NCBI GenBank assembly: GCA_021299095.1
Contig: JAJTFW010000010.1
Span: 1-38,102, forward strand
Reading direction: 5' to 3'
Length of the DNA: 38,102 bases
From: Sphingobacteriales bacterium
GTDB taxonomy: Bacteria; Bacteroidota; Bacteroidia; AKYH767-A; OLB10
Below, one piece after another: positions 29,228 through 36,840 of the stretch (its first letter is position 1; every line of letters starts with the position of its first letter). A program made the translations under genes and the position numbers. The notes under the pieces were generated by a model. The model worked only from the letters and a program-made list of their open reading frames with translations, was not told where the DNA came from and did no database searches.

Positions 29228-30682
29228 TTGAGCCCCCAAGCCCTCCCATCGATTCAATTTCACCAATTTCGTGGCGTGGGCATTCGTTTACTCCTGCTAC
29301 TGTTCATCCTCACCCTATCGGATTTGTCCGCCCAGACCGTATCCGATAGTCTGAACTTACAGGCCTCACACATCCGGCAAATCATAATAACGGGAAACAA
29401 GCGCACCAAGGAGGCGATTGTGCGTCGTGAACTCACATTTACCGAAGGTGATACACTGCCAAGCTACGTTTTGGAAGAAGCCAGCGCACGAAGTCGCCAG
29501 AACCTCATCAATACCGGACTATTCAATTTTGCAGAGATCACATTCTTTCGCGGGCAGGGACTCGAAACCGTGGTTCATATTGACCTGACGGAGCGGTGGT
29601 ATCTGTGGCCGTCCCCGATTTTTGAAATATCGGATCGGAATTTCAATGAATGGTTGGTCAGAAAAGACTTTTCAAGGACCAATTACGGATTGGTTGTGCG
29701 CCAGGAAAACCTGAGTGGGAACGACGATATCCTACAGGCTCAAGGTATTTTCGGCTATACGAACCGATTCGGACTTGCCTATTCCCGCCCATTCATCAAC
29801 AAGCGCATGGACCTGGGGCTGACTGTCGGTTTTGCTTACTCCAAACAGGCTGAAACATCCTACAATACCACGGGGAACAAACTGGATTTTATAAGGCTCG
29901 ATGATACACCTGCCAGGACCGAACGCACAGCCTTCGTGCGGTTGGTGCGAAGAAAAGGGCTCTATCAGTATTTCACTACCACCGCCGACTATCGTCGTAC
30001 TGATGTAAACGATACGGTCATTCGCCTTAATCCCACCTATCTCTGGAGGGATGAAACGCGACAGCAATATTTCGGACTTACATGGTCCTATCGTTTCGAC
30101 AACCGCGATTATCAACCTTACGCCCTTGCAGGACGGGTCTTTGAAATTGAAGTGAATAAAACTGGAATCGGGTTGTTTAAAAATGAACCGAACTTGTTGA
30201 TGATTAGCGCTGGGCTCCGCGTGTATGGCCAATTTGCGAAGCGATGGTATGCCGCAGCAGCTATTAAAGGGCGCCTGACCCAACAGGAGTCCTCGCCATT
30301 CACAAACAGGAAGGCCCTGGGCTATGGTGGTGATTACATTAGGGGGTATGACCTATATGTCATCAACGGACAGAACTTCGTATTACTTAGAAGCGCAGTG
30401 CGATACAACCTGCTCCGTAGACGAGTTTATCAGTTACCATACCTGAACAGTAATAAATTCAAAAAGATCCCCATCACGATTCACATTACAGGGTTTTTTG
30501 ATGCAGGAAAAGTTGAAGACCCCCTGGCAGGCGCCCGAAATCCGCTGAGCAACAGCTGGCAATACGGGACCGGCATCAGCCTTGATTTGATTTCATACTA
30601 TGATGTTGTGATGCGTGTTGAAGCTGCAGTAAACCGTCAGGGTGAGCGCGGGCTGTTTTTACGCTTTGGTGCGCCGTTCTGA
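29228..30682 (+). CDS. Short Omp85/BamA-TamA-family outer-membrane protein with one POTRA
   Basis: 484 codons from a TTG start. A hydrophobic signal (IRLLLLLFILTLSDLSAQ) is followed by one POTRA-like module (about 50-120: IIITGNKRTKEAIVRRELTFTEGD, SRQNLINTGLFNFAEITFF) and then alternating strands to the end, finishing FLRFGAPF with the terminal Phe expected of a beta-signal. The conserved GGDYIRGYDLYVINGQNF segment resembles the VRGY loop of Omp85 barrels. It differs from the full BamA at 34336 in having far fewer POTRA domains. No ATG exists before the signal peptide: an in-frame stop lies at 29207, leaving TTG at 29228 (1 base after the CBS stop) or GTG at 29276. Its function is unknown; assembly or transport of envelope proteins is plausible. 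Confidence 0.82.
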   Translation: MSPQALPSIQFHQFRGVGIRLLLLLFILTLSDLSAQTVSDSLNLQASHIRQIIITGNKRTKEAIVRRELTFTEGDTLPSYVLEEASARSRQNLINTGLFNFAEITFFRGQGLETVVHIDLTERWYLWPSPIFEISDRNFNEWLVRKDFSRTNYGLVVRQENLSGNDDILQAQGIFGYTNRFGLAYSRPFINKRMDLGLTVGFAYSKQAETSYNTTGNKLDFIRLDDTPARTERTAFVRLVRRKGLYQYFTTTADYRRTDVNDTVIRLNPTYLWRDETRQQYFGLTWSYRFDNRDYQPYALAGRVFEIEVNKTGIGLFKNEPNLLMISAGLRVYGQFAKRWYAAAAIKGRLTQQESSPFTNRKALGYGGDYIRGYDLYVINGQNFVLLRSAVRYNLLRRRVYQLPYLNSNKFKKIPITIHITGFFDAGKVEDPLAGARNPLSNSWQYGTGISLDLISYYDVVMRVEAAVNRQGERGLFLRFGAPF

Positions 30683-30715: not shown

Positions 30716-31591
30716 ATGAAAGTGGCCGTTTACGCCCGACAGGTATCCAGCGAACACCATGGATTGTTTGCCAGGCTGTTTGCAGAATTGGAGCGGCTGA
30801 AGTGTGCAGTGTTTATTCACCAACCCCTCCTCCATCAGCTGCGTGGAGCCGGAATAAAACCGGAGTGCACAGCATTTCATTCCGGCACGGAAATCCACGG
30901 TCGGGTTGATTTTTTACTCAGCCTGGGTGGAGATGGCACCATACTCGATACACTCACCCTGGTTCAGGATAGTGAGCTACCGGTGCTAGGGATCAACTTG
31001 GGGCGTCTGGGCTTTCTGACCGGAGTTGGACAAGACGAGCTCATTTCTGCACTGGAAGCCTTGCAGAAAGGGCATTTTTCCATGGATAAGCGTGGACTAC
31101 TTAGACTTGAATCAGACCGAAACCTGTTCGGCAAGGTCAATTATGCCCTCAATGAACTGACCATTCACAAAAAGGACAGTTCGAGCATGATTACCATAAA
31201 CACCTACCTGAATGGTGAGTTTCTGAATTCCTATTGGGCCGATGGATTAATCATTGCCACTCCTACCGGATCGACCGGATATTCAATGAGTTGCGGAGGG
31301 CCTATTGTCGCCCCTTACTCCGGCAACTTCGTCATTACCCCCATCGCACCGCACAACCTGAGCGTGAGGCCGATTGTAGTTTCAGACAAAAACGTTATTT
31401 CGCTCGAAGTAGAGAGTAGAACACCCTATTTCATCGCAACACTTGACTCACGCTCTGTGACAATTGACACCGCTATTTCATTGGCAGTTCGCAAGGAGGA
31501 TTTCGCCATGAACCTGATTCGATTGGGGTCCTCGAACTTTTTGGATACCCTCCGAAGAAAGCTCAACTGGGGTTTGGATACGCGAAACTGA
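30716..31591 (+). CDS. nadK: NAD kinase
   Basis: A 291-residue cytosolic kinase that phosphorylates NAD+ to NADP+. The GGDGT motif is in LLSLGGDGTILDTL (about 68-81), and the NE motif is in YALNELTIHKKDSSS. The glycine-rich TPTGSTGYSMSCGGPIV segment (about 183-199) and PIAPHNLSVRPIV complete the conserved core. Length is normal. It lies 33 bases after the Omp85-like gene and about 80 before the first PorG-like gene, in the same direction. I see no regulatory signal beyond the possible promoter. Confidence 0.97.
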   Translation: MKVAVYARQVSSEHHGLFARLFAELERLKCAVFIHQPLLHQLRGAGIKPECTAFHSGTEIHGRVDFLLSLGGDGTILDTLTLVQDSELPVLGINLGRLGFLTGVGQDELISALEALQKGHFSMDKRGLLRLESDRNLFGKVNYALNELTIHKKDSSSMITINTYLNGEFLNSYWADGLIIATPTGSTGYSMSCGGPIVAPYSGNFVITPIAPHNLSVRPIVVSDKNVISLEVESRTPYFIATLDSRSVTIDTAISLAVRKEDFAMNLIRLGSSNFLDTLRRKLNWGLDTRN

Positions 31592-31671: not shown

Positions 31672-32598
31672 ATGAAATGTAGACTATTATTCGTGCTTTC
31701 CCTGGTGCTGCTCAGCGGATTTACCGCTGATGCTCAGCGCATGAGAGCCCGCTGGAAAGCCTATCGCTACGAATGGAGTGCCGGTATCGGAGCCAGCAAT
31801 TTCTTGGGGGATCTCGGAGGAGCCAATGCCATTGGCACGAATGGCTTCAAGGATTTGGAACTCAGCCTTACACGCCCGGCCTTGACGGTCGGCTTCCGAT
31901 ACAAAATCGCCCAGAATTTTTCCCTTCACTCCCACTTGACTTACGGCCACGTTCGCGGTGATGACAAGCTTACTGAAGAGTTTTTCCGGAACAACAGAAA
32001 CCTCAATTTCAAGTCTGATATCTTCGAATTCAATCTGAATTTCGAAGCTGCGTTACTGAATCAGCGCCAAGGGGGTATTTACCGCCTTCGTGGAGTAAAG
32101 CGCTTGACCACCTATGAAACCTCCATTTATGCATTTGCTGGTATCGGCGTCTTCCGATTCAACCCAAAAGGAGAACTCAATGGCGAGTGGTATCGACTTC
32201 AACCTCTTGGAACGGAAGGACAAGGTTTGTCACCTGCCCGTGAACGCTACGACCTGGTCCAGATTTGCGTGCCCATGGGTATCGGCGCCCGATACTTCTT
32301 CAACCGACGAATGGGTGTAGGATTCGAGTTCGGCATTCGCAAGACATTTACGGATTACATCGATGATGTAAGTAAAACTTATTATGACAATGAGGCCATC
32401 AAGCAGAAGTATGGACAGGTAGCCGCCCTTCTTGCTGACCCTAGCGCATCCTCACTTAATGGTACCGATGCTGATGATGTTATCACTGCGCCTGGACAAC
32501 AGCGTGGGGACCCACGTGATAATGATGCTTATATGTTTGCCGTCATCAGCATTCATTACAAGTTGCGCACCGGCCGCTCCAATTTCCCGGTATTCTAA
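31672..32598 (+). CDS. PorG-like (DUF6089-type) outer-membrane beta-barrel protein, copy 1
   Basis: A 308-residue protein with a signal peptide (about 1-21, ending ADAQ) and a predicted eight-stranded-type barrel of alternating segments (YEWSAGIGASNFLGDLGG, LTVGFRYKIAQNFSL, YAFAGIGVFRFNPKGEL). The signatures LQPLGTEGQG and TFTDYIDDVSKTYYD are those of the PorG/DUF6089 family. PorG anchors the periplasmic PorK/PorN ring of the type IX secretion system to the outer membrane in Porphyromonas, where porG also lies just upstream of uppS. The next gene is a second copy of the same family. Which copy, if either, is the T9SS component cannot be told from here. The insert between the last two strands (ASSLNGTDADDVITAPGQQ) is longer than in copy 2. 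Confidence 0.82.
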   Translation: MKCRLLFVLSLVLLSGFTADAQRMRARWKAYRYEWSAGIGASNFLGDLGGANAIGTNGFKDLELSLTRPALTVGFRYKIAQNFSLHSHLTYGHVRGDDKLTEEFFRNNRNLNFKSDIFEFNLNFEAALLNQRQGGIYRLRGVKRLTTYETSIYAFAGIGVFRFNPKGELNGEWYRLQPLGTEGQGLSPARERYDLVQICVPMGIGARYFFNRRMGVGFEFGIRKTFTDYIDDVSKTYYDNEAIKQKYGQVAALLADPSASSLNGTDADDVITAPGQQRGDPRDNDAYMFAVISIHYKLRTGRSNFPVF

Positions 32599-32604
32599 AT
32601 CGGG

Positions 32605-32634
32605 TCTCACCGGAATCCGGGAGAACAATTTTTT
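32605..32634 (+). terminator. Putative intrinsic terminator or attenuator between the PorG-like genes
   Basis: TCTC-(A bulge)-CCGG pairs with CCGG-GAGA across an AAT loop (32605-32624), followed by a six-T run (32629-32634) and then six A. The next gene starts only 30 bases downstream with no evident promoter between, so partial read-through is likely. Confidence 0.55.
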
Positions 32635-32663
32635 AAAAAACTTCTGCGTTAGGAGCTAGAACC

Positions 32664-33506
32664 GTGAGACTTGCCACCCTAGCATTTCTGTTTTCACTGC
32701 TCATCGTGACAAATACCCGTTCTCAATCCAGAGAAATGGGGTTGATGCTTGGAGCCATGGGGTACCGTGGTGATCTGGACCCCACGATGTATGACACCCG
32801 CTTTATTGATCCAGCATTGGGTATCCTCTACCGCAGGTCGTACAGCAACCACTGGGCTTTTAAAACAGGGATCAACTACGGCAAAATCCATGCAGATGAC
32901 GCGGAAGCCGATAACCAATGGGAGAGGAACCGGAATCTGCATTTTCGCTCCTCTATTCTGGAACTGACAAGTCAGGTTGAATTCAACTTTTTCCCGTACC
33001 AGACCGCAAGCCCGTTCTCTAAGTTCAGCCCTTACCTCTTTTTTGGTGTTTCTGCTTTTCATTTTAACCCCAAAGCGGAAATCAACGGATCGTGGGTAAA
33101 ACTTCAGCCTTTGGGAACTGAGGGCCAGGGCACTGAATTGTATCCGGACCGTAAGCGTTATGGCCGAATCACCGGATCGTTCGTGTACGGAGGAGGATTC
33201 AAATTCAAGGTGATGCGGCGTTTTGGTGTAATGATTGAAACTGGCGTAAGACCCACATTCACCGATTACCTCGACGATGTAAGTTCAACCTATGCGGACC
33301 CGCTGGCCATCCGACGTGAATACGGCAAAACGGCGTCAGCGCTAAGCGATCGCTCCTTGGACAAGGATCCAGGAGGAAATATAGGTCGGCAGCGTGGCGA
33401 CCGCAGGCTGCGTGACTGGTATGTGTTTACAGGAGTACAAATCACGTACACCCTCTCAAAAAAATACATCGACAGCTGCCAGCCCTTCCGGATCAAGCTG
33501 TGGTAA
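32664..33506 (+). CDS. PorG-like (DUF6089-type) outer-membrane beta-barrel protein, copy 2
   Basis: A 280-residue paralogue of the preceding gene, from a GTG start with AGGAG 9 bases upstream. It has a signal peptide (about 1-20, ending TRSQS). It shares NRNLHFRSSILELTSQVEFN, PYLFFGVSAFHFNPKAEING, LQPLGTEGQG, PTFTDYLDDVSSTYADPLAI and a late QRGDRRLRDWYVF with copy 1, but is clearly diverged, so the duplication is not recent. The C terminus continues about 15 residues past the last strand (KKYIDSCQPFRIKLW), with a cysteine and a basic tail, unlike copy 1. Position directly before uppS matches porG in Porphyromonas, so this copy may be the positional orthologue. Confidence 0.82.
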   Translation: MRLATLAFLFSLLIVTNTRSQSREMGLMLGAMGYRGDLDPTMYDTRFIDPALGILYRRSYSNHWAFKTGINYGKIHADDAEADNQWERNRNLHFRSSILELTSQVEFNFFPYQTASPFSKFSPYLFFGVSAFHFNPKAEINGSWVKLQPLGTEGQGTELYPDRKRYGRITGSFVYGGGFKFKVMRRFGVMIETGVRPTFTDYLDDVSSTYADPLAIRREYGKTASALSDRSLDKDPGGNIGRQRGDRRLRDWYVFTGVQITYTLSKKYIDSCQPFRIKLW

Positions 33507-33584: not shown

Positions 33585-34343
33585 ATGTCCTCCCCTCTAA
33601 AAGAACAAATCAATCCGCACCATTTGCCCAGGCATGTGGCCATCATTATGGATGGAAACGGGCGTTGGGCGAAGAAGCAGGGGAAAATCAGAACCTTCGG
33701 ACATCAGGGTGGAGTGACTGCGGTGAAGGATACGGTAGAGGCTGCTGCCGAGCTCGGCATCGAGGTGCTAACCATGTATGCATTCAGCACCGAGAACTGG
33801 AGTAGGCCGAAACTTGAAATCGATGCCCTCATGCACTTGCTTGTTGAAACGATCAGCAAGGAAACACCGACGCTGATGAAAAATCAGATTCGTCTGGACG
33901 CAATCGGAGATATTGATGCATTACCCACCAAGGTGGCCCGTAACCTGAGAAAAACGATTGATGCAACCGCAACCAACACGAGAATGACCCTCGTGCTTGC
34001 GCTTAGCTATAGTTCACGTTGGGAGATCACCAAAGCGGTAAAGGCAATTGCATCCGAAGTTAAAGCGGGAATACTGGAACCTGAAGCAATAACTGAGGAT
34101 GTTGTAAGCAAACACCTTGCTACTGCCGAATGGCCCGATCCCGAACTGCTCATCCGCACCAGTGGTGAATCCAGAATCAGCAATTACCTGCTATGGCAAA
34201 TTGCCTACGCGGAACTTTATTTTACGCCGAAACTATGGCCTGATTTCCGGAAAGAGGATTTGTATGAGGCTCTGCTGGATTTCCAGCAACGCGAGCGACG
34301 CTTCGGAAAAACAACAGAGCAAGTAAAGTCTGAGCATGCGTAA
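33585..34343 (+). CDS. uppS: Isoprenyl transferase (undecaprenyl diphosphate synthase)
   Basis: A 252-residue cis-prenyltransferase that extends farnesyl diphosphate to C55, the lipid carrier for peptidoglycan and surface glycans. The catalytic Asp sits in IIMDGNGRWAKKQGK (about 18-32), followed by GHQGGVTAVKD, TMYAFSTENWSRP, LALSYSSRWEI and DPELLIRTSGESRISNYLLWQIAYAELYF, the full set of family motifs. Length is normal. Its last 8 bases overlap the start of bamA. The product feeds MraY of the dcw operon at the other end of the window. Confidence 0.97.
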   Translation: MSSPLKEQINPHHLPRHVAIIMDGNGRWAKKQGKIRTFGHQGGVTAVKDTVEAAAELGIEVLTMYAFSTENWSRPKLEIDALMHLLVETISKETPTLMKNQIRLDAIGDIDALPTKVARNLRKTIDATATNTRMTLVLALSYSSRWEITKAVKAIASEVKAGILEPEAITEDVVSKHLATAEWPDPELLIRTSGESRISNYLLWQIAYAELYFTPKLWPDFRKEDLYEALLDFQQRERRFGKTTEQVKSEHA

Positions 34344-36840
34344 AAAGCTGGTCCTTTTGTTCGTCCTAATTGGGATGTGCGCCGGCTTGGTTAGCGCTCA
34401 GCAAGTCGGTAGCGCCGAAGGTGTTCGCATTGATTTCAGTAACCCGAAAGAATACGAACTCGGAGGTATTACAGTTTCCGGAGTTCAGTTTCTGGACGAA
34501 AGCGTACTAATCACCCTAACAGGTCTGAACGTAGGCGATCGCTACCGTATTCCAGGGGAGCGCATTTCAATGGCCGTTGAAAACCTGTGGAAGCAAGGTT
34601 TGTTGTCCGACATTAAAGTAATCGCCACCAAAGTCATCAGCGATCGTATTTTTCTCAACTTCCAGCTAAGCGAGCGGCCTCGCTTGTCTCGTTTCGCATT
34701 TCAGGGTATATCGAAAAGTGAAGCGGACAAGTTGAGGGAGAAACTGCAACTCGTAAAAGGAAAAGTCATCACCGAAAACCTGGTATATCTGACCCGGAAT
34801 CAGGTCCGTGATTACTATATCGACAAAGGATTCCTGTTCATCGATGTCAGCATCCAAACTGAAAGGGACTCCACTGCCGGTGCAAACCAGGAGCTGATGC
34901 GGATTACCGTGGGCAACAGAAAACGTGTCAAGATTAACGATGTGATTTTGCACGGCAATTCGGTACTGAGCGAAAAGAAATTGCTCAGCAAAATGAAGGG
35001 GAGCAAGGAGTCTGCCTGGTATAAAATCTTCAGCAACTCGAAGTACGGGGATGAGGCACTCGAGAAAGACAAGGAAAAAATCATTGCAACCTATGCGGGC
35101 AAGGGAATGCGCGATGCCAGCATCTTAAAAGACAGCGTATATCGGCACGATGACCGCACTGTCAATATCGAATTATGGATTCAGGAAGGGCCGAAGTATT
35201 ACTTCAGGAATATAGACTGGGTCGGAAACACCAAGTATACTTCTACACAACTGGGGCAGATCCTGAGTATCAAACGAGGGGATATTTACAACCAGCAGAA
35301 ACTTGAAGAAGGCCTCTTCATCTCCCAAAGCGGCAGGGATATCAGCTCCTTGTACATGGACGATGGTTACTTGTTTTTTCAAGTGACTCCTGTTGAAGTC
35401 CTTGTTGACCAAGACTCTATTGACCTGGAAATGCGCATCTATGAAGGCAAGCAGGCCACAGTGAACAGGGTTACAGTAAAAGGCAACACCAAAACGAATG
35501 ACAAGGTGGTGCTAAGAGAAATCCGCACCAAACCGGGGCAGTTGTTCAATCGCTCTGACATCATCCGCACCCAGCGTGAACTTGCCCAGCTCGGTTATTT
35601 CGATCAGGAAAAACTCAATGTAAACCCCAAGCCCAATCCGGCCGACGGAACTGTCGATATCGAATACACCGTAGAGGAGCGTCCGTCAGATCAGCTTGAA
35701 CTATCGGGCGGTTGGGGTGGTGGCGCCGGTGTTGTGGGAACTCTTGGTGTTTCCTTCAATAATTTTTCTGCACGCAACATTTTCCGCAGGGACACCTGGT
35801 CTCCTTTACCCACAGGTGATGGGCAGCGTCTGTCTATCCGCTTCCAATCGAATGGACGATTTTTCCAGAGTTACAATGCCAGTTTCACCGAACCGTGGTT
35901 AGGAGGGCGCAAGCCGAATTCGCTCAGTGTTTCGGCCTTTCGGTCTATCCAAACAGACGGACTTCCGAAGGACGATGCGAACCGCTCCGTCCTTGCCATC
36001 AGTGGTATGTCGGTGGGTTTAGGAAGACGCCTTACCTGGCCTGACGATTTCTTCCAGATCTATCACGAGGCGGCATTTCAGCGCTACTCACTTGATCAGT
36101 GGACCGGCACCTTTTTGTTTACGGACGGGAACTCGAACAACTTGAACTTCGAACAGACCATTTCCCGCAATTCCGTTGATGGGTTAATCTGGATCCGGAG
36201 TGGTTCGCAGTTGTCGTTCACCCTTCAACTTACACCTCCCTTCAGCCTGTTTAACAAGACCACCGACTATGCCTCGGCCCCATCCGAGATAAAATACAAA
36301 TGGATTGAATACCACAAGTGGAAATTCAGTGGTAGCTGGTACCGTTCTCTCGGTAATAAGTTTGTGTTGTTTTCACGCGCACAAATGGCCATTTTGGGCT
36401 TCTACAATCCGGATATCGGTCCATCCCCCTTTGAGCGGTTTTACCTGGGCGGTGACGGATTATCGGGATTCGCCCTAGACGGACGTGAAATCATCGCCTT
36501 ACGGGGTTATGAAAACAACACGATTACACCCAGAATCAAGGGGAATCCCGTTGGAGGAACCGCCTACAACAAATTCACCATGGAGCTGCGCTTTCCGGTC
36601 TCCCTTAACCCCTCAGCAACCATTTACACCCTGGCCTTCCTTGAAGGAGGTAACAACTGGCTTGGAACACGATACTTCAACCCCTTTGTTCTCAAGCGTT
36701 CTGCCGGAGTCGGTGTACGGATATTCCTGCCCATGTTCGGTCTGCTCGGCCTTGACTGGGGTTATGGATTTGACGAGGTTGAGAACCTACCGGGTGTGAA
36801 CGGTGCCAATTTCCACTTCACCATCGGCCAGCAGTTTTAA
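34336..36840 (+). CDS. bamA: Outer-membrane protein assembly factor BamA
   Basis: An 834-residue Omp85 protein that folds and inserts outer-membrane proteins. A signal peptide (about 1-21, ending VSAQQ) is followed by five POTRA modules to about residue 450 (for example ITVSGVQFLDESVLITLTGL, RVTVKGNTKTNDKVVLREIR, GQLFNRSDIIRTQRELAQLG), then a 16-strand-type barrel. The strand-6 loop reads ALRGYENN, the VRGY-like motif that contacts the barrel interior, and the chain ends FHFTIGQQF with the terminal Phe. Length is typical of Bacteroidota BamA. The start overlaps the uppS stop by 8 bases. Two OmpH/Skp-type chaperones follow, as in other members of the phylum. Confidence 0.96.
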   Translation: MRKKLVLLFVLIGMCAGLVSAQQVGSAEGVRIDFSNPKEYELGGITVSGVQFLDESVLITLTGLNVGDRYRIPGERISMAVENLWKQGLLSDIKVIATKVISDRIFLNFQLSERPRLSRFAFQGISKSEADKLREKLQLVKGKVITENLVYLTRNQVRDYYIDKGFLFIDVSIQTERDSTAGANQELMRITVGNRKRVKINDVILHGNSVLSEKKLLSKMKGSKESAWYKIFSNSKYGDEALEKDKEKIIATYAGKGMRDASILKDSVYRHDDRTVNIELWIQEGPKYYFRNIDWVGNTKYTSTQLGQILSIKRGDIYNQQKLEEGLFISQSGRDISSLYMDDGYLFFQVTPVEVLVDQDSIDLEMRIYEGKQATVNRVTVKGNTKTNDKVVLREIRTKPGQLFNRSDIIRTQRELAQLGYFDQEKLNVNPKPNPADGTVDIEYTVEERPSDQLELSGGWGGGAGVVGTLGVSFNNFSARNIFRRDTWSPLPTGDGQRLSIRFQSNGRFFQSYNASFTEPWLGGRKPNSLSVSAFRSIQTDGLPKDDANRSVLAISGMSVGLGRRLTWPDDFFQIYHEAAFQRYSLDQWTGTFLFTDGNSNNLNFEQTISRNSVDGLIWIRSGSQLSFTLQLTPPFSLFNKTTDYASAPSEIKYKWIEYHKWKFSGSWYRSLGNKFVLFSRAQMAILGFYNPDIGPSPFERFYLGGDGLSGFALDGREIIALRGYENNTITPRIKGNPVGGTAYNKFTMELRFPVSLNPSATIYTLAFLEGGNNWLGTRYFNPFVLKRSAGVGVRIFLPMFGLLGLDWGYGFDEVENLPGVNGANFHFTIGQQF

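Follow-up and report, generated by a model that had tools for sequence, protein, structure and literature searches.

The window analysed here, a stretch of 38,102 nucleotides from a Sphingobacteriales bacterium, carries two adjoining, diverged PorG-like genes upstream of a uppS-bamA pair (Table 1). Both open reading frames lie exactly where the first-pass annotation had put them, on the same strand, and are hereafter called copy 1 and copy 2. They are flanked by open reading frames which we take to be nadK (upstream) and uppS (downstream); among the class loci compared, the same nadK neighbour is found at many related loci, and uppS is likewise recurrent. The gaps between nadK, copy 1, copy 2, and uppS measure 80, 65, and 78 bp, respectively, and the uppS and bamA reading frames overlap. 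Because the genes share one strand, are separated by short gaps, and end in this overlap, nadK, copy 1, copy 2, uppS, and bamA likely form one operon. Scans for promoters (8 versus 8.8 by chance) and terminators (10 versus 9.9) stayed at chance level. A short Omp85-type protein (484 amino acids, one POTRA match) is encoded upstream of nadK at window positions 29228-30682, in the same gene run as bamA.

Table 1 Features of the tandem PorG-like locus (positions in the window)
Feature	Position	Strand	Description or basis
nadK (presumed)	30716..31591	+	Upstream neighbour; open reading frame
Copy 1	31672..32598	+	Cys-less PorG paralogue, 308 aa, ATG start, signal peptide, 8-stranded outer-membrane barrel
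Copy 2	32664..33506	+	PorG proper, 280 aa, GTG start, 8-stranded barrel
uppS (presumed)	33585..34343	+	Downstream neighbour; open reading frame, name from the first-pass annotation
bamA	34336..36840	+	TIGR03303, 330.6 bits
Copy 1, core of turn T2	32071..32112	+	Residues 134-147, between model strands 4 and 5 (AF2 model)
Copy 1, C-terminal tail	32566..32595	+	Residues 299-308, no Cys, ends F-P-V-F
Copy 2, codon of Cys272	33477..33479	+	Tail S-C-Q-P-F; putative disulfide site to GldK Cys308, mechanism from PMC12635249

The two products are paralogues, as had been proposed. A BLASTP comparison gave 93 identities over 251 positions (37%, E 6e-48), and both proteins exceed the Pfam gathering cut-off (23.2) for DUF6089 (PF19573), with 39.5 bits for copy 1 and 105.3 bits for copy 2. 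The segments LQPLGTEGQG, TFTDY(I/L)DDVS, and QRGD, on which the first-pass annotation had based this relationship, are all present in both copies; however, QRGD, described there as the final segment, sits 30-40 residues ahead of the C-terminus. DUF6089 is a family without assigned function, and its name is absent from the literature searched. Against the NCBIfam T9SS_PorG equivalog (NF052316, cut-off 130), copy 2 passed with 159.8 bits, so that the pair does not fall outside PorG altogether, whereas copy 1 failed with 102.1 bits. Both copies were modelled by AF2 as 8-stranded barrels (pLDDT 80 for copy 1 and 88.7 for copy 2). Foldseek searches against the PDB returned OmpA as the best match (E 2e-7 and 6e-9), followed by other small barrels, with no T9SS protein among the best 50 rows per copy; the clue to function given by this search is thus the barrel only. 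Among solved structures, a sequence search up to E 10 left copy 2 without a match, and the 18 matches obtained for copy 1 (best E 0.31) were taken as chance.

Copy 2 shows every PorG feature testable in this analysis. It is alike the PorG proteins of F. johnsoniae (Fjoh_1692) and P. gingivalis (PG0189) in its equivalog score, its 8-stranded barrel, and its periplasmic tail cysteine, and it stands before uppS-bamA just as F. johnsoniae porG is found at the bamA locus (PMC12611786). It differs from known PorG in having a single tail cysteine in a C-Q-P-F frame instead of CxC. Copy 1 departs from known PorG further, having no tail cysteine, a longer T2 turn, and a score below the equivalog cut-off.

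The genome from which the window comes (2.51 Mb, 93 contigs, 96% complete) was searched with profiles for the T9SS core genes. The gldK, gldL, gldM, and gldN genes adjoin one another, and sprA (2632 bits), a gldJ homologue (415 bits, below its own cut-off of 458), and PorP/SprF-family genes are also present. The T9SS C-terminal signal was matched 108 times, with 107 of the scores above the cut-off. An absence of T9SS core genes, which the first-pass annotation had named as an argument against its proposal, is therefore excluded. The GldK protein (L038:7187-8488, 606 bits) carries Cys308 inside an RGCF motif, while the GldJ of this genome has no RGCF cysteine. The gldJ gene (L239:2063-3328, minus strand, G000:C72) encodes 422 amino acids, compared with 480-491 amino acids in the matched open frames of genomes G006, G008, and G025; its profile match crosses stops, which represents either a real truncation or an assembly error. 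Beside it lies a PorP/SprF-family barrel gene (L239:3358-4536, minus strand), whose product has a tail ending S-C-P-S-F; this is the C-P-x-F frame of many PorGs and possibly a common docking motif for the GldK cysteine.

Several further proteins of this genome matched the PorG model. A third PorG-like barrel (G000:C47:54443-55327, corresponding to L039:8444-9328; 295 amino acids, 59 bits) has a long basic tail ending N-T-C-P-A-Y-Q, making it a second Cys-tailed track candidate in the genome. A fourth and distant one (G000:C39, L040:3709-4764, minus strand; 352 amino acids, 62.9 bits) has no tail cysteine. The model also matched a 522-amino-acid protein with a C-terminal OmpA-like domain (L041:2514-4079, minus strand, G000:C88). 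Matches within frames of 419-538 amino acids occur in 32 of 41 genomes, among the matches listed, and of these only the L041 protein was examined.

According to the sections of Liu et al. (2025, PMC12635249) covered here, the C-tail cysteine of PorG is disulfide-bonded to Cys343 of GldK or Cys356 of PorK, which lies in the RGCF motif, and is a conserved PorG feature across T9SS-containing Bacteroidota. In F. johnsoniae, Type A export ceases and the adhesin tracks change once PorG is deprived of its cysteines, while some Type B export remains, whereas deletion of PorG stops the Type B cargo that the Cys-less protein still lets out; PorG thus has a disulfide-independent role (PMC12635249). The first-pass annotation had ascribed a single porG at this position to Porphyromonas, and the same sections speak of one P. 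gingivalis PorG, PG0189, whose single tail cysteine is essential (PMC12635249). SprF, an outer-membrane barrel of the PorP/SprF family, is likewise tethered via a C-tail cysteine to the same GldK residue (PMC12635249), but it belongs to another family (TIGR03519) and carries an adhesin. By analogy, Cys272 of copy 2, the tail cysteine already noticed in the first-pass annotation, would form a disulfide with Cys308 of GldK in the window's species. The sequence of copy 1 excludes it as a covalent anchor through a tail cysteine. The suggestion that the pair represents two forms of the PorK/PorN ring anchor is not supported in that form, since copy 1 has no bond-making tail cysteine and only copy 2 could be the covalent anchor.

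This difference between the copies is not limited to one genome. At 30 loci, the window's own included, the tail cysteine is present in 30 of 30 copy 2 tails and in none of the 30 copy 1 tails (the copy 1 of L029 has a cysteine in the last strand, outside the tail). We then compared 191 family proteins, with the class loci drawn from the matches listed (about 18 of those listed were left out). Omitted from this set were proteins truncated at the 3' end, those shorter than 200 amino acids or scoring below 60 bits, as well as L001, L003, L004, L036 (the window again), L041, L141 (a repeat of L153), L181 (a fusion), and a copy 1 fragment at L020. Among these proteins, 117 are copy-2-like with a cysteine and 70 are copy-1-like without one, so that cysteine and barrel type agree in 187. 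The remaining four are L040, L142, and L143 (copy-2-like, no cysteine) and L194 (copy-1-like, with a cysteine).

Because the profiles used for this typing include the tail, a tree of the barrel only, with tails removed, served as an independent test (142 of the 191 rows, LG+C20, unrooted). It leaves aside near-identical rows and a number of long or odd ones, including the two distant paralogues of the window's genome, L039 (with a cysteine) and L040 (without), as well as L150, L125, L191, and two of the four L172 rows. The cysteine label required 2 changes over the 142 rows, against a shuffled mean of 43; a quick tree of all 191 rows, which keeps those dropped, required 3, against a shuffled mean of 58.2. 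Copy 1 falls inside a 51-row clade consisting entirely of Cys-less proteins (support 99/81), which comprises the 39 rows of its own clade (100/97) and another clade of 12 rows (100/98) whose members have very basic tails, mostly ending RAKF, and lie at other loci. The next row to join the 51-row clade is the Cys-tailed L194, with the tail YCPKF (98/85); the other Cys-less group in the 142-row tree is L142/L143. Because Cys tails stand on both sides of the remaining tree, the simplest reading of this unrooted tree is that the family was ancestrally Cys-tailed and that the clade of copy 1 lost the cysteine once.

The pair goes back to an old duplication common to much of the class and is not peculiar to the window's genome. 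Among the matches listed, at least 40 of 41 genomes (the window's own and 40 relatives) have the tandem pair on one contig, the one without it among those matches being G039, which is 85% complete. Each of the 30 loci around the best matches has one protein of each kind, and further families of the class likewise contain the pair. When a broader profile was applied (E 1e-20), it matched 15 of 24 genomes of this class versus none of 75 from other classes of the phylum. Some lineages of the class have two to four tandem Cys-tailed copies in place of the pair. Three or four tandem porG-like genes, every one with a tail cysteine, were seen at L153, L154, L159, L164, L169, L171, and L172 in other lineages, and two copy-1-type genes (the second of 245-266 amino acids) followed by a short Cys-tailed porG at L055, L056, L058-L062, and L064. 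No tandem or Cys-less PorG is described in the literature searched, in which most subscription journals lie outside, figures are not covered, and PMC12635249, PMC12611786, and PMC7323717 are represented by parts of their text.

Of 119 class genomes, 68 have a copy-1-clade gene when a score cut that we chose is applied to the copy 1 profile; the lowest genome counted has 247 bits and the highest left out 226. At 205 bits, the GldJ-lacking genome G061, which has a Cys-tailed protein, would enter the count. This distribution bears on the idea that copy 1 is the partner of GldJ: PorG would bond GldK by its cysteine and the Cys-less copy 1 would sit on GldJ in a GldJ-K-N track, so that ring-type species lacking GldJ would need none. 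Consistent with this, copy-1-clade genes were found in 68 of 101 GldJ-bearing versus 0 of 18 GldJ-lacking genomes (Fisher p 3e-8, uncorrected for descent; by 55 families 28/0/18/9, p 7e-4), and the missing RGCF cysteine in the GldJ of the window's genome, the one GldJ inspected for it, fits as well. However, a BamA tree of 29 genomes (30 were chosen out of the 119, and G073 dropped out with no BamA match) contained only 2 independent contrasts, so shared descent explains the pattern equally well, and the copy-1 count itself depends on the chosen cut (247 versus 226 bits). In addition, genomes G097 and G126, which from their PorG and GldJ scores we presume to be Flavobacterium-like, possess GldJ without any copy-1 match at E 1e-30, and at the porG locus of G053 and G090, which lack GldJ, there is a diverged Cys-less copy. 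The co-occurrence, striking by count, is lost as support once descent is counted and stays a lead; we consider a dedicated GldJ partner improbable.

Beyond the absent cysteine, the Cys-less proteins share features of their own. Of 118 Cys tails, 83 have an aromatic residue three places after the cysteine (shuffled mean 27.6, maximum 40). In 70 of 73 Cys-less tails, one of the three final residues is aromatic, and 43 of these 70 tails have it as P-x-aromatic; the frame is thus C-x-x-F/Y in the Cys form versus x-P-x-F in the copy 1 form, with R, L, F, or Y most often at the position of the cysteine. Tail net charge is +4.8 in Cys-less versus +2.2 in Cys-tailed proteins. The longer loop of copy 1 that had been noticed earlier corresponds to T2, which by alignment is about 10 residues longer than that of PorG: among 73 Cys-less proteins, this stretch is 25 residues long in 45, with a second mode of 19 residues in 11, versus 15 residues in 76 of 118 Cys-tailed ones, and its mean net charge is +3.8 versus +0.8. 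The copy 1 model is weak in T2 (pLDDT about 67-73); given its topology, with periplasmic termini, T2 is predicted to face the periplasm, towards the track. Copy 1 also has a basic stretch behind the signal peptide, and in the alignment it retains the barrel motifs and shows conserved motifs of its own. The specialisation at which the first-pass annotation had hinted is borne out, as are the paralogy and the T9SS setting.

For copy 1, dN/dS lay at 0.021-0.115, dS being usable in 8 of 10 genome pairs; for copy 2 it lay at 0.024-0.051, with a usable dS in 7 of 10. Several of the dS values were greater than 1. These low ratios, near those of copy 2, indicate that copy 1 is a working gene under strong purifying selection. 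A spare PorG without a distinct role, kept for dosage or redundancy, would agree with the common fold and locus of the two copies; however, the absence of the cysteine across the 51-row clade, the motifs peculiar to copy 1, and a dN/dS within the range of that of copy 2 all speak against it, as does the essential nature of the single tail cysteine in P. gingivalis (PMC12635249), and we regard this as very improbable.

Our favoured explanation, held tentatively and with a little under half of our confidence, is that copy 2 acts as the covalent anchor and copy 1 as a non-covalent companion of PorG. The moving track, which in relatives drives secretion and gliding, would pull copy 2 through the disulfide between Cys272 and the RGCF cysteine of GldK/PorK and thereby power the T9SS translocon. 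Because copy 1 has no bonding cysteine, it cannot be chained to GldK in that way; with its barrel and tail frame retained and its periplasmic turn longer and more positive, it would most likely do the disulfide-independent part of the work of PorG, such as contacting the track (perhaps at GldJ) or the translocon non-covalently, placing the track, or exporting Type B cargo. Since PorG has a disulfide-independent role and copy 1 has been kept beside PorG, a non-covalent role in the same machine is favoured. The earlier suggestion that one copy was recruited to another role was thus the better half of that guess, although the role itself, like the whole function of copy 1, is put forward here as a proposal. 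The tie of copy 1 to the T9SS is drawn from homology and gene order only. Co-occurrence with GldM was discarded as a link, having no power: GldM is present in 67 of the 68 copy-1 genomes (the exception is G091) and in 115 of all 119.

Alternatively, copy 1 may have left the T9SS altogether: descended from PorG, its barrel would now serve the outer membrane in some other way, such as inserting barrels next to bamA or acting as a surface receptor. Its tail without a cysteine, its longer and positive periplasmic turn, and its score below the PorG equivalog cut-off would all fit such a departure, and bamA is only two genes away. Copies away from porG also adjoin non-T9SS genes: nadK, uppS, and bamA had no match in the available flanking DNA of 38 of 80 named loci (some of which are contig ends, and one of which, L115, still has two adjoining PorG-like genes), and the recurrent neighbours at these 38 loci, in clusters named by eye, include no T9SS genes. 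Against this, copy 1 is maintained next to porG in nearly every genome of the 41-genome set among the matches listed, and it retains the tail frame and the barrel motifs. The BAM complex purified from F. johnsoniae had no T9SS components in the portions of that report covered here (PMC12611786), a point that weighs little, as no copy 1 turned up in G097 and G126, the genomes resembling that species. Overall, we consider that copy 1 has left the T9SS to be unlikely, albeit a more serious contender than the GldJ partner.

These results establish a well-supported and widespread Cys-less PorG paralogue beside PorG, to which we assign a function by proposal. It is possible, although we advance it with reserve, that in many Bacteroidia a single track serves two kinds of PorG, a chained force-transmitter and an ancient Cys-less, non-covalent rider or guide, possibly on GldJ, which would split the disulfide-dependent and -independent jobs of a single PorG. 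If so, nature would have divided the jobs that Liu et al. found inside one PorG (PMC12635249). The C-x-x-F/Y frame may further be a short motif that docks on the cysteine of the track. There is also a warning here, as annotation by homology may call two different proteins 'PorG'. In the large Cys-less clade, whose genes are often kept next to the Cys form, nature supplies an equivalent of the Cys-less mutant, which opens the unexplained disulfide-independent role of PorG to direct testing.
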